Assembly: GCF_003324485.1 (NCBI RefSeq)
Contig: NZ_QODK01000002.1
Coordinates: forward strand, 930,001 to 994,000
DNA length: 64,000 nucleotides
Direction of reading: 5' to 3'
Source of the DNA: Cohaesibacter intestini
Lineage (GTDB): Bacteria; Pseudomonadota; Alphaproteobacteria; Rhizobiales; Cohaesibacteraceae
The notes beneath the pieces were generated by a model. The model did not search any database. It worked only from the letters and a program-made list of their open reading frames with translations, and was not told the origin of the DNA. Below are positions 13,821-17,787 of the stretch, in pieces. The stretch's first letter is position 1. Each line of letters opens with the position of its first letter. A program made the position numbers and the translations under genes.

Positions 13821-14851
13821 GATCGGCCTCCTGAGCGGCTCTCCGCCAGCATTCTGGGCAATCCAAGCCCTTTTGCATCCAATGGGTGAGGCGCAGCATC
13901 GGTCCGTATGCCAGCCCGCATCTTTGCTGACCTGGACCGTGGATTGCGCGCCAGTTCTACCTCGTCAGGTCCCACCCCGCCTTTCACCGCCATTTCGAAA
14001 CTCGGGGCTGCGAGATCCTGCTCCGGCATATAACGTGACCCGCCGGAATGGGTCTTGGAACGCTCCTGAAAGAAGCGTTTGACAATACGATCTTCGAGCG
14101 AATGGAAGGTCACGACAACCAGCCGACCGCCTGGCTTGAGACAGCGTTCCGCCGCCATCAGCCCGTCGACCAGTTCGTCAAGCTCGCCATTGACATAGAT
14201 CCGCAGACCCTGAAACACCTTGGTCGCCGGATGTATCTTCTGTGTCGGTTTGCGGCCAATGGTCTTCTCGATCAGGTTCGCCAGATCAAGCGTGGTCTCA
14301 AACGGCGTTACCGCACGGCGCTCAACAATCGCTGCGGCGATCCGGCGCCCCTGATTTTCTTCGCCCAACTGACGGAAAATCCGGGTCAGTTCCACTGCGT
14401 CATGACCATTGACCACGTCCGCCGCGCTCGGCCCGCTCTGGGACATCCGCATATCGAGCGGCCCATCCTGCATGAAGGAAAAGCCCCTTTCGGCTTCATC
14501 CAGCTGCATCGAAGAAACGCCGATATCCAGCACAACCGCATCAAGTGGTGTCAGCCCTTCATCGGCAGCAATATCGGCCAGCTCACTGAAACAGCCCGCC
14601 ACGAACCGCAACCGCTCGCCATATTTGGTCTGCAGCACCGCCGCCCGATCAGCAGCTTCCGGATCCCGGTCAACCCCAAGCACCGAAGCACCCCGATCAA
14701 GAATGGCGCTGGAATAGCCGCCAAAACCGAAGGTGCCATCGAGCACCCATTCGCCGTCACGGGCATCAAGGGCATCAACAACAGGATCAAGCAGCACAGG
14801 GATATGACGCTGAGCGTCTTCACCATCGATCATCGCGCTGAGCTCGCTCAT
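13817..14851 (-). CDS. rsmH: 16S rRNA (cytosine-1402-N4)-methyltransferase RsmH
   Basis: SAM-dependent enzyme that methylates C1402 in the 16S rRNA P site. The 344 residues start with HIPVLLDPVVDAL, then the SAM motif DGTFGFGGYSSAIL, VLDIGVSSMQLDEAERGFS and, in the C-terminal half, FQGLRIYVNGELDEL and VVVTFHSLEDRIVKRFF. The second gene of the dcw cluster, with ATGA overlaps to mraZ and ftsL. Confidence 0.97.
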   Translation of the reverse strand: MSELSAMIDGEDAQRHIPVLLDPVVDALDARDGEWVLDGTFGFGGYSSAILDRGASVLGVDRDPEAADRAAVLQTKYGERLRFVAGCFSELADIAADEGLTPLDAVVLDIGVSSMQLDEAERGFSFMQDGPLDMRMSQSGPSAADVVNGHDAVELTRIFRQLGEENQGRRIAAAIVERRAVTPFETTLDLANLIEKTIGRKPTQKIHPATKVFQGLRIYVNGELDELVDGLMAAERCLKPGGRLVVVTFHSLEDRIVKRFFQERSKTHSGGSRYMPEQDLAAPSFEMAVKGGVGPDEVELARNPRSRSAKMRAGIRTDAAPHPLDAKGLGLPRMLAESRSGGRS

Positions 14852-15333
14852 GCCTCGTCTCCTCCGCCTTGCCCTTCTTTGGGGGCCACATTTGTTTTTC
14901 CTTGACGGATCCTCGACAGGGCAAGCTTTTGCGCTTCCTTGCGATGGACCTCATAGCGATCGGGTTGCCAGAGGCGAAATTTCGTCCCTTGACCGACAAA
15001 CACCACCACATCCGTGATGCCCGCATATTCCTTGATGCTTTCGCTCAGGACGATGCGACCATCCTTGTCGATCTTGAAAGTCTCGCTCTCCCCCAACAGG
15101 GCAGTCGAGAGCATTTCGCGCTCTTCCGAGAAGGGATCGAACTGGTTGAGCTGATCGTTGATTTCCTGCTGATAAACCAAGCCACCGGCCTCGATGGAGA
15201 CTTGGTCAAGAGAAGGACTGCAAAATAGGCTGTCCTGTCCATCCTGTGCGAGCAACTGCCGGAAGGGAGCAGGTATCGACACACGCCCCTTGGAATCCAA
15301 CCGGTTCACATATTTGGATACAAATGCCTGCAT
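14848..15333 (-). CDS. mraZ: Transcriptional regulator MraZ
   Basis: First gene of the dcw cluster. MraZ is a ring-forming DNA-binding protein with two AbrB-like halves that represses its own operon. The 161 residues show the first repeat YVNRLDSKGRVSIPAPFRQLL (residues 8-28) and the second FKIDKDGRIVLSESIKEYAGI (about residues 90-110). Each holds the expected D-x-x-GR-hydrophobic core. The likely operator is the TGGGN array 225-270 bases upstream. Confidence 0.96.
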   Translation of the reverse strand: MQAFVSKYVNRLDSKGRVSIPAPFRQLLAQDGQDSLFCSPSLDQVSIEAGGLVYQQEINDQLNQFDPFSEEREMLSTALLGESETFKIDKDGRIVLSESIKEYAGITDVVVFVGQGTKFRLWQPDRYEVHRKEAQKLALSRIRQGKTNVAPKEGQGGGDEA

Positions 15334-15871
15334 CCTATCCCGCCTACTGGACCATTTTCGACGCGCCTTGGCTGATCGAAAAATGCCTCACAACACTGAA
15401 AATCCAGCGCTCTGCTCCGCCCCGTTTTACCGGTGCGTTCCCAAACCGCCCTCAACGCTCATTGTTTCACTCTTGCCTCCCGATAAGGGAGTAGTCCGCC
15501 GCATAGTCTGTGGGATCGAGTCATTTCAGACGACACGACCCCGGACCGCATGGATATGGGATATCATGGGATTATATGGGCGTCAATGGAATCCCATGGA
15601 GTCACGCCACAGCAGCCGCGATCTCCCATTTTAAGAAAATTAGCGTTAACAAAGGGTTGAAGCCAATTTGGTCCAAAAGGCCCAAAGGCACTTTTAACAG
15701 GTTAAAAACAGGCAAATGGCGTCTGGATTTTGCACTTGCCCGACAAAACCCATGAACAAAACCCACGAACAGAACCCATGAACCACCAGAGAAGGTTTCT
15801 GCGTCTTGCGACGCAACCAACTCCGCTGCGACACCCATCAGGAGGCGAAGAAACGCAAAAGAAAGAAAAAG
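15334..15871. other. Gene-free stretch between mraZ and rnpB
   Basis: About 540 bases with no convincing coding frame. It contains the MraZ box array described separately, a long leader of some 220 bases between those boxes and mraZ, and A/G-rich DNA just 3' of rnpB. The frames open here on both strands read as low-complexity shadow peptides. Confidence 0.7.
15557..15601 (-). promoter_or_regulatory. MraZ operator array and mra promoter region
   Basis: On the plus strand TGGGA, TGGGA, TGGGC, TGGAA and TGGAG start at 15557, 15567, 15577, 15587 and 15597: five boxes at an exact 10-base period, the first three perfect. MraZ of Escherichia coli is known to bind direct TGGGN repeats spaced by five bases ahead of mraZ. 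The same stretch read on the minus strand holds TATAAT (15571-15576) and TTGACG (15581-15586), so bound protein would cover the likely promoter. The exact -35/-10 pair is not certain. Confidence 0.8.
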
Positions 15872-16263
15872 AAGAACCAGTCGGTCTGTAAGCCGGGTTT
15901 TGTACGGCGCGGCCCGAGGGCCACACGCGGCAACCATTCATCTGGGGCATCCATTGCTGAATGCCTCTAGCAACCCACCCGAATGACTGGCCTGAAAGCC
16001 GGCTGGACTTGCGCCCGCGCCATTCCTATTCGGTTTTGCTCCCGGTGGGGTTTACCATGCCGTCCGCATTGCTGAAGACGCGGTGAGCTCTTACCTCACC
16101 CTTTCACCCTTACCCGACGCGATGTCGGGCGGTTTGCTTTCTGTGGCACTTTCCCTAGAGTCGCCTCCGCCGGGCGTTACCCGGCACCGTGCTTTCATGG
16201 AGCCCGGACTTTCCTCACCGGATTGCTTTCGCGTGACCGGTGCGGCTGCCCGACCGACTGGTC
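15872..16263 (-). ncRNA. rnpB: RNase P RNA, bacterial class A
   Basis: Catalytic RNA of the tRNA 5'-processing enzyme. The P1 helix closes perfectly, with ACCAGTCGGTC at the 5' end and GACCGACTGGT at the 3' end. Between them are the universally conserved GAGGAAAGTCCGGGCTCC (CR-I), the AGGGTGAAAGGGTGAGGTAAGAG region, and the 3' CR-V block near the plus-strand text AAGCCGGGTTTTGTACGGC. About 392 nt is normal for alphaproteobacteria. Ends are set from P1 and may be off by a few bases. Confidence 0.96.
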
Positions 16264-16268
16264 TCCCG

Positions 16269-16297
16269 GACCTAAGCCCAATTGCATCGCAGGTCAA
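16269..16297 (-). promoter_or_regulatory. rnpB promoter overlapping the end of the MocR gene
   Basis: On the minus strand, TTGACC (16292-16297), a 17-base spacer and TAGGTC (16269-16274) place the start of transcription about 6-7 bases further on, exactly where rnpB P1 begins. The -35 box overlaps the stop codon of the upstream MocR-type gene. Confidence 0.65.
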
Positions 16298-17787
16298 GGG
16301 ACGAAGCGCTTGAGACAGTGCGCAACTGCCGCGACAGCGTTAACAATCTCGGCCTCATTGGATGCCGCATAGCCAAAGAACAATCCCTGCCGCACCTCAC
16401 AGCGACCGGACCAGTAAAGCGCCGACAAAGGCGTGCACTCGATGCCGATTGCTGCCAGTGCCGCCGCCAGCGCATCATCCCGCACCCCGGCTTCCAGCAG
16501 GCGCGGTGTCAGATAGGCAGGCATCTGGATGCCCCCATCCGGCACTTCCGGCATCAAGATGTCACCACACTGAGCCGCCAGAGCCTCGGCCAAACAATCC
16601 CGCCGTGCCTGATAGAGCTTGTTCATGTCGCGCACATGGCTGCGAAAATGCCCGCTGGTCAAAAACTCTGCCAACGCCATTTGCACCGTCAAACCCGGCA
16701 CCCCTCCCATATTGCGCTGCATCCTCCTGACCGGCTCGACCAGAGGCGGCGGCACCACCAGATAGGCAAGGCGCAAGGAGGGCATCAGCGATTTGGCGAA
16801 AGTGCCCATATAGAGCACCCGCTCGCCGCGACCCAACCCTTGCAAACAGGAGAGTGGCGCGTTGGAGAAATGAAACTCACTGTCGTAATCATCCTCCAGA
16901 ACGAATGCCCCATGTTTGGCAGCAAAGGCCAACAGCGCCAAACGATCCTCCAGCGCCATCACCTGCCCGGAAGGGAACTGATGGGACGGCGAAACATAGA
17001 TCAACCGTGGTACAGCCCCATCAGCCACCAAGTCGTCAAGCCGCTGAAACCGGTCTGCCGCATACACCTCAATTGGCCGGACATCCGAATGCACCCCGCG
17101 CAACACCGACAGCATTCCCGCATAGCCCGGCTCTTCATGCAACGCCACATCGCCCGGATCCAGCAACAGGCGCGCGACCAGATCCAGAGCGGCTTGCGCC
17201 GAGGAAAAGACAATCACCTGCTCCGCAGACGCAGAAACTCCTCGGCTCACGGCCACATGATCTATCAGCGCCTCACGCAGGTCCGGCAGGCCATAATAGT
17301 GAGCATAGCCCCCCAGCAGGGGCTGCTGATGCATCCCCCGTGCCGCACGCCTCAAACAGCGTCCCCACAAGTCATGGGGAAAGTGGCGCACATCTGGCAA
17401 TCCCGGCTGAAAAGTGTGCGGTGTCGGTTGATCCCGCCGCCCAACCGCGATCAGCGCTTGGGCGCTGCGCGACAAGCGCAGGGGACGCGCCTGCGGCGGC
17501 TCCTCTCGCGCCGGGGGCTCGACCGGCACAAATCCCCGTGAGGCTTCGCTGACAAAGGTGCCGCGCCGCCCTTCAGAGCGCAAATAGCCTTCTGCCAGCA
17601 GCAAGTCATAGGCAGCCACCACACTGTTGCGTCCCACGCCCAGCTGGGCGGACAGATGTCGACTGGTCGGCAAGCGACTGCCAGCCCCAAGCACACCCGT
17701 CTCGATCAGCCCTCTGAGCTGTTCAAACAATTGCGGCACGAGACCCTTCCCCCCGGCACGATCCAGAGTGATGTGACTTGCAAGCAT
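16294..17787 (-). CDS. MocR/PdxR-type GntR regulator with aminotransferase domain
   Basis: Transcription factor with an N-terminal GntR winged helix (about residues 10-75; LPTSRHLSAQLGVGRNSVVAAYDLLLAEGYL) fused to a class I aminotransferase-like domain. The PLP-lysine site is MGTFAKSLMPSLRLAYLV and the cofactor region is LEDDYDSEF. Proteins of this group sense pyridoxal phosphate or an amine and bind direct repeats. The divergent gene encodes a pyridoxamine-phosphate-oxidase-fold protein, a common partner, and the 121-base gap holds repeated TTGG-TC motifs. 497 residues is typical. Confidence 0.9.
   Translation of the reverse strand: MLASHITLDRAGGKGLVPQLFEQLRGLIETGVLGAGSRLPTSRHLSAQLGVGRNSVVAAYDLLLAEGYLRSEGRRGTFVSEASRGFVPVEPPAREEPPQARPLRLSRSAQALIAVGRRDQPTPHTFQPGLPDVRHFPHDLWGRCLRRAARGMHQQPLLGGYAHYYGLPDLREALIDHVAVSRGVSASAEQVIVFSSAQAALDLVARLLLDPGDVALHEEPGYAGMLSVLRGVHSDVRPIEVYAADRFQRLDDLVADGAVPRLIYVSPSHQFPSGQVMALEDRLALLAFAAKHGAFVLEDDYDSEFHFSNAPLSCLQGLGRGERVLYMGTFAKSLMPSLRLAYLVVPPPLVEPVRRMQRNMGGVPGLTVQMALAEFLTSGHFRSHVRDMNKLYQARRDCLAEALAAQCGDILMPEVPDGGIQMPAYLTPRLLEAGVRDDALAAALAAIGIECTPLSALYWSGRCEVRQGLFFGYAASNEAEIVNAVAAVAHCLKRFVP

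Follow-up and report, generated by a model that had tools for sequence, protein, structure and literature searches.

A conserved antisense TGGG ladder over the mraZ promoter of Cohaesibacter intestini, a probable MraZ operator

What does a ladder of five TGGG-like boxes do on the promoter of mraZ in Cohaesibacter intestini, and which protein reads it? Few regulators are as broadly conserved in bacteria as MraZ, and the Escherichia coli MraZ boxes are three TGGGN repeats. From the letters of a 64,000-nucleotide stretch (the window) alone, an initial annotation had proposed that the boxes extend here to five, lie on the strand opposite to mraZ and cover its promoter. The gene itself (14848..15333, - strand) is the first of the dcw operon and encodes a 161-residue protein that matches PF02381 (E 9e-16), carries DSKGR and DKDGR (DxxxR) motifs and starts in the context MxxFVS.YVNRLDSKGRVSIPA, which is common to its relatives; solved relatives by sequence include 1n0e and 9qlr. 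It is followed, in order, by rsmH (mraW), a short ftsL-sized ORF that had no Pfam match and is named by position only, ftsI and murE. Directly upstream of the mra promoter, on the same strand as mraZ, lies the RNase P RNA gene rnpB (15873-16261); sequences resembling the end of rnpB were also seen, as judged by eye, upstream of mraZ in some relatives (L023, L025 and L031). One genome (G015, contamination 8%) held a second MraZ match of equal score on another contig, and another (G016) a second, distant MraZ-like protein with 29% identity. Published work is cited below by PMC number.

Direct reading of the sequence recovered the five boxes, TGGG/TGGG/TGGG/TGGA/TGGA, at exact 10-base steps and at the place first proposed (15557-15600, + strand). 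They begin as TGGGA at 15557, TGGGA at 15567, TGGGC at 15577, TGGAA at 15587 and TGGAG at 15597. The ladder strand is opposite to that of mraZ, and the boxes lie 224 bases ahead of its ATG. On the + strand, box 1 (15557..15560), box 2 (15567..15570) and box 3 (15577..15580) are TGGG, that is, CCCA in the sense direction of mraZ, and box 4 (15587..15590) and box 5 (15597..15600) are TGGA.

We collected 157 alphaproteobacterial mraZ upstream regions, 18 from the genus (this genome included), 30 from the order and 109 from the class. The class regions were taken from 110 of 206 mraZ genomes, at the top of the E-value list, and are hence biased toward good Pfam matches; one of the 110 fetched (L040) belongs to the same order. 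A position matrix, seeded on the sense strand and re-estimated on the same sequences that it then scored, located the ladder over the mraZ promoter in 154 of the 157 regions (18/18 genus, 30/30 order, 106/109 class), with scores above every shuffled copy (shuffle maximum -1.4; reversed-sequence maximum 14.1). Three regions (L045, L056 and L092) were left out of the column counts and kept in the distance, TTGAC/TATCCC and run-length figures. The box and junction column counts also leave out regions matching TTGAC at fewer than four of five bases (4 in the order, 49 in the class) and refer to the remaining, registered, 26 order and 57 class regions.

With TTGAC as zero, the sense CCCA of boxes 3, 2 and 1 stands at +6, +16 and +26, where it was found in 18/18 genus members each, in 21, 21 and 24 of 26 order regions and in 44, 48 and 50 of 57 class regions. 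At -4 (box 4), CCCA was present in 28/57 class regions and in 0/18 genus members, which read TCCA (12) or TCCG (6), so that TCC was kept in 18/18 and its A in only 12/18. At -14 (box 5), NCCA was found in 18/18 genus members (TCCA 14, CCCA 4; CCA(T) kept throughout) as well as in 6/26 order and 8/57 class regions. A CCCA at +36 was present in 30/57 class and 11/26 order regions and in 0/18 genus members. With a box gained at -14 and the one at +36 lost, the genus ladder is slid one step upstream; class relatives often have a true TGGG box 4 plus a further downstream box instead of the degenerate pair. Sequence and conservation thus bear out the proposal that MraZ boxes on the strand opposite to the gene cover the mra promoter. 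The boxes are retained by every one of the 18 genus members and across the class, so that the lack of conservation in close relatives, which the initial annotation had named as a refutation, was looked for and not found. The extension past three boxes also stands.

The promoter under the ladder was only partly recognized at first. TTGACG (15581..15586, - strand), which had been named as a promoter element, is the -35, present in 18/18 genus members (exact TTGAC in 25/30 order and 50/109 class regions). The second element named, TATAAT (15576-15571, - strand), exists but was rejected as a -10, being only 4 bases from TTGACG and conserved in 2/18 genus members. An extended -10, TGATATCCC (TGN-TATCCC; 15558..15566, - strand), lies 17 bases from the -35, and its TGNTAT was found in 18/18 genus, 19/26 order and 51/57 class regions. 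This TGNTAT is fixed at one junction (+20 to +25), compared with 0-1 occurrences per group at the remaining box junctions that were tested. The promoter conserved in these columns reads TTGACG-N17-TATCCC, its -10 extended by TGN (15586-15558, - strand; TGNTATCCC), and the boxes share its bases: boxes 4 and 3 adjoin the -35 on its upstream and downstream sides, respectively, box 2 leads, when read in the sense direction, into the TG of the extended -10, and the CCCA of box 1 overlaps the -10. As a sigma-70 -10 hexamer TATCCC is poor, and a consensus promoter scanner found no promoter at the ladder. The TTGAC match at this register is below four of five in 51/109 class regions; some of these poorly matching regions are registered 10 bases off, and others may use another promoter.

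The published mraZ leaders of Sinorhizobium meliloti and Rhodobacter sphaeroides measure 170 and 268 nt (PMC5089854). In the S. meliloti locus of our set (L195), the ATG lies 206 bases from the first T of TTGAC, and the 170-nt leader therefore puts the transcription start at +36, with the limit that L195 is from strain 4H41 and the published start may be that of another strain. A start 36 bases from TTGAC is at the spacing that a sigma-70-type promoter requires. The same geometry predicts a start at about 15550 (15549..15551, - strand) in C. intestini and hence a leader of about 217 nt (15334..15550, - strand; RNA fold z -2.0), in line with the long leader that the initial annotation had expected. 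The median predicted leader is about 111 nt in the genus and 78 nt in the registered class regions. A long leader with a terminator was reported as exclusive to Rhodobacteraceae (PMC5089854); the long leaders predicted here outside that family indicate that such length is not confined to one family. In family f61 (L313-L324), which is possibly Rhodobacteraceae, 8 of 12 loci had a degenerate ladder scoring 13.7 to 30.9, one of them (13.7) below the reversed-sequence maximum of 14.1, and the other 4 scored -13.2 to 6.7. A MraZ motif was found in 5 of the 8 ladder loci, with the ladder 317-377 nt before its D; these distances are compatible with the 268-nt R. sphaeroides leader and the long UpsM leader of Rhodobacteraceae.

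The intrinsic terminator of an UpsM-type leader had no counterpart here, as no terminator-like site was found on the - strand of 15250-16400. A candidate hairpin in the leader was also rejected, since its covariation score was 0.116 compared with 0.142 in shuffles, 449 of 500 of which scored as high; RNAalifold kept 3 pairs. Early in the leader, at about 15520-15534 (- strand), we noted a conserved GTCKTTAGNAATGAC-like sequence, present by strict pattern in 15/18 genus members, as a variant in the window, and in none of the order or class regions. As covariation fails to support an RNA hairpin, it may be a protein site on DNA or RNA. Some 48-64 bases upstream of the -35 lies a GTTAAC...TTAA element (15631-15650, - strand), whose GTTAA occurs in 18/18 genus members compared with 0 in the preceding 310 nt. 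It possibly represents CtrA-like half sites.

The initial annotation had treated boxes 4 and 5 as simply degenerate and had missed that in the genus they spell GANTC methylation sites. Both boxes are rewritten there as GANTCCAT, CcrM sites. One GANTC overlaps box 4 (15589..15593, both strands; GAATC on +, GATTC on -) at offset -7 from TTGAC in 18/18 genus members, the other overlaps box 5 (15599..15603, both strands; GAGTC on +, GACTC on -) at offset -17 in 14/18, and the N of both (columns -7 to -3 and -17 to -13) varies within the genus. The four members without the -17 site have a true CCCA box instead, and CCAT is invariant in 18/18. The remaining upstream sequence of the genus members contains little GANTC (0.0017 per base). 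A conserved GANTC in the promoter region, as in GcrA/CcrM promoters, is thus present, and the genome encodes GcrA (E 1.3e-58) and a RAMA-domain protein of the CcrM kind, a putative methylase. This pattern suggests that, in the genus, box quality was traded for methylation sites with the ATGG core kept.

It is conceivable that the two upstream boxes were rewritten as paired CcrM sites (GANTCCAT-NN-GANTCC[A/G]TTGACG), through which methylation that depends on replication would modulate MraZ or RNA polymerase at the dcw promoter, or bring GcrA to it. We regard this reading as tentative because, in the class, promoter GANTC is equally frequent in genomes lacking GcrA (10/43) and in those having it (14/63; p = 1) and because the extended motif YGAKTCK does not fit the sense-strand sites, TGACTCC and GGATTCC. 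In Caulobacter, YGAKTCK was reported for activation by GcrA (PMC7987155), whereas no YGAKTCK preference was seen in a study of Brevundimonas. Promoters of Caulobacter whose GANTC lies outside the stretch between -35 and -10 were reported to be lowest at 40-60 min (PMC4287350). Outside the genus, the -7 GANTC was found in 5/26 order regions (1.45 expected from column frequencies) and in 1/57 class regions (0.73 expected), and the excess in the order is suggestive at most. A further GANTC at +2 (TTGACTC), present in 18/106 class regions, was rejected as a methylation feature (11/63 with GcrA vs 7/43 without, p = 1; 10/77 with RAMA/CcrM vs 8/29 without) and is taken to arise simply where CCC follows TTGACT.

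The same sites feed the alternative that survives best, namely that only boxes 1-3 are MraZ boxes and that boxes 4 and 5 resemble them only through a TCCA that happens to occur in the -35 flank and in two CcrM sites (GANTCCAT). The high occupancy of GANTC at -7 and -17 and the loss of the A of box 4 in 6/18 genus members speak for it. However, the CCAT of box 5 is invariant even in the four members without the -17 GANTC, although GANTC needs no CAT, and 28/57 class regions have a true CCCA as box 4. We therefore consider this restriction to three boxes possible, though doubtful.

Our preferred reading, based on the sequence features above, is that the five-box ladder very probably serves MraZ as its operator at the mra (dcw) promoter, likely for autorepression. 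The ATGGG copies, in helical phase on one face of the DNA, would be read by an MraZ oligomer, and the same bases also form the promoter, with boxes 4 and 3 flanking TTGACG, box 2 ending in the extended -10 TG and box 1 overlapping the -10 TATCCC. An MraZ ring along the ladder would cover the region from -35 to -10 and shut out RNA polymerase, and the outcome would be negative autoregulation of the cell-wall and division operon. The boxes with their conservation and their link to mraZ, and the promoter geometry with its agreement with a start published for a relative, are results of this analysis, whereas binding of MraZ in this organism, and repression, are what we infer. Our search of the open-licence PMC literature retrieved neither binding nor expression data on an alphaproteobacterial MraZ.

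In Mycoplasma, MraZ was reported as an activator, and MraZ could likewise bind the ladder and activate. Its role in Alphaproteobacteria was not found in the open-licence PMC literature, which leaves room for such a function. The boxes coincide, however, with bases of the -35 and -10, where repressors classically sit, and E. coli MraZ is a repressor (PMC8475190). Activation thus seems rather unlikely.

The assignment of the operator to MraZ draws on its co-occurrence with the gene. A core pattern of 20 fixed bases, allowing up to 3 mismatches, was scanned against 241 class genomes and was found in 175/206 genomes with mraZ compared with 7/35 without (p 4e-14); it was absent from 31/206 mraZ genomes, and the reversed control pattern occurred in 6/241 genomes. 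All seven exceptions without mraZ were 3-mismatch matches. In one of them (G096, locus L340), the ladder lies just before an ORF with NKVDRKGRVSVPAAFR, a mraZ that the Pfam search had overlooked; the loci of the remaining six showed no MraZ motif and look like chance matches. With the exceptions examined, the ladder is conserved with mraZ and dependent on its presence. In agreement with this, a blind scan of the named genomes with a 31-base DNA pattern gave at least 118 loci, and 113 of the 118 among the matches listed lay upstream of mraZ, as judged from an MraZ start motif that followed within 900 bases. Two traits of an MraZ operator, TGGG direct repeats at a 10-base period and a location at the mraZ/dcw promoter, are thus found together.

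These data also bear on the possibility that the ladder is the site of another dcw regulator, such as CtrA, NtrX or CenR. In R. sphaeroides, the region upstream of mraZ is bound by NtrX and CenR (PMC7240162, PMC9275681), and a CtrA motif was listed for S. meliloti mraZ (PMC3616915). Yet the presence of the ladder follows that of mraZ, its TGGG unit at 10 bases matches the E. coli boxes (locus L034), and the published motifs of NtrX (GCAn9TGC) and CtrA (TTAA-N7-TTAA) are different sequences, which makes such a site very improbable.

Within the window there is a single exact match to the three-box pattern, compared with 0.02 expected from shuffles (2/100 shuffles had at least one), and the five-box pattern matches once with 0 mismatches, with 0.22 expected even at 3 mismatches. 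Genome-wide, the bare three-box pattern is not rare and gave 3 matches, 2 of them overlapping at one other place, and its reversed control gave 2. That place (G000:C1:921395-921428, - strand; TGGGTTGGGTTGGG...) is the sole other exact three-box TGGG ladder in the genome and is probably of low complexity. At up to 3 mismatches, the core pattern matched only the mra ladder in the 4.8-Mb genome, and this search thus revealed no other MraZ targets. The significance of the ladder rests on its conservation and not on the repeat alone: a chance low-complexity repeat, which the bare pattern at one other genomic place might suggest, is refuted by its retention in 154/157 mraZ upstream regions, by the co-occurrence with mraZ, by the blind scan and by the shuffle counts.

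The regulator and the kind of site are already known. The interlocked antisense layout covering the promoter, its class-wide spread and an MraZ target in Alphaproteobacteria were not found described in the open-licence PMC literature. With a class-wide operator whose bases also serve as -35 flank, extended -10 and -10, autorepression becomes directly testable in models such as S. meliloti, and the ladder is a DNA signature able to find overlooked mraZ genes, one of which was found here. The rewriting into GANTC marks a definite point at which methylation in the cell cycle could act on the control of division genes; if true, the expression of cell-wall and division genes would be tied to the passage of the replication fork through one composite element.

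How does this locus compare with known systems? Like the dcw leader of Rhodobacteraceae with the sRNA UpsM (PMC5089854), it has its predicted mraZ start far upstream, but no counterpart of the terminator of that leader was found on the - strand here; the text of that paper contains no terms for repeats or an MraZ binding site. The Mollicutes MraZ site, (AAAGTGKN3)3, also consists of 10-nt direct repeats in the dcw promoter, although its core differs from the TGGG ladder (PMC5282649). In Burkholderia cenocepacia, MraZ binding was shown for PmraBc, which has four 7-nt repeats with 3-nt spacers and thus the same 10-nt period; unlike the boxes described here, its GTG-type repeats lie downstream of the -10 and overlap the start (PMC7761207).

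The closest comparison is E. coli, where mraZ is likewise the first gene and TGGG boxes stand at 10-base steps next to the promoter (GTGGGAAATTGTGGGGCAAAGTGGGAATAA in MG1655). The K-12 boxes, which read GTGGGAAATTGTGGGGCAAAGTGGG, are on the sense strand between the promoter and the ATG, whereas in Cohaesibacter five boxes are antisense, lie upstream on the -35 and -10 bases and precede a predicted long leader; the E. coli layout of sense boxes downstream of the -10 was not found at this locus. The initial annotation had missed this inversion of orientation and position. TGGG runs were antisense-dominant in 145 of the 157 alphaproteobacterial upstream regions, with 9 ties and 3 sense. Among the best 30 Pfam-matched loci outside the class, which we call gamma/beta-type on the basis of their assignment to the same phylum, 14 were sense-dominant, 16 were ties and 0 were antisense-dominant, with AAAGTGG-like repeats on the sense strand. 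Since the boxes of these 30 loci and of E. coli are in the sense orientation and downstream of the -10, the alphaproteobacterial layout is inverted, and one regulator family thus appears with opposite site orientations in sister classes.
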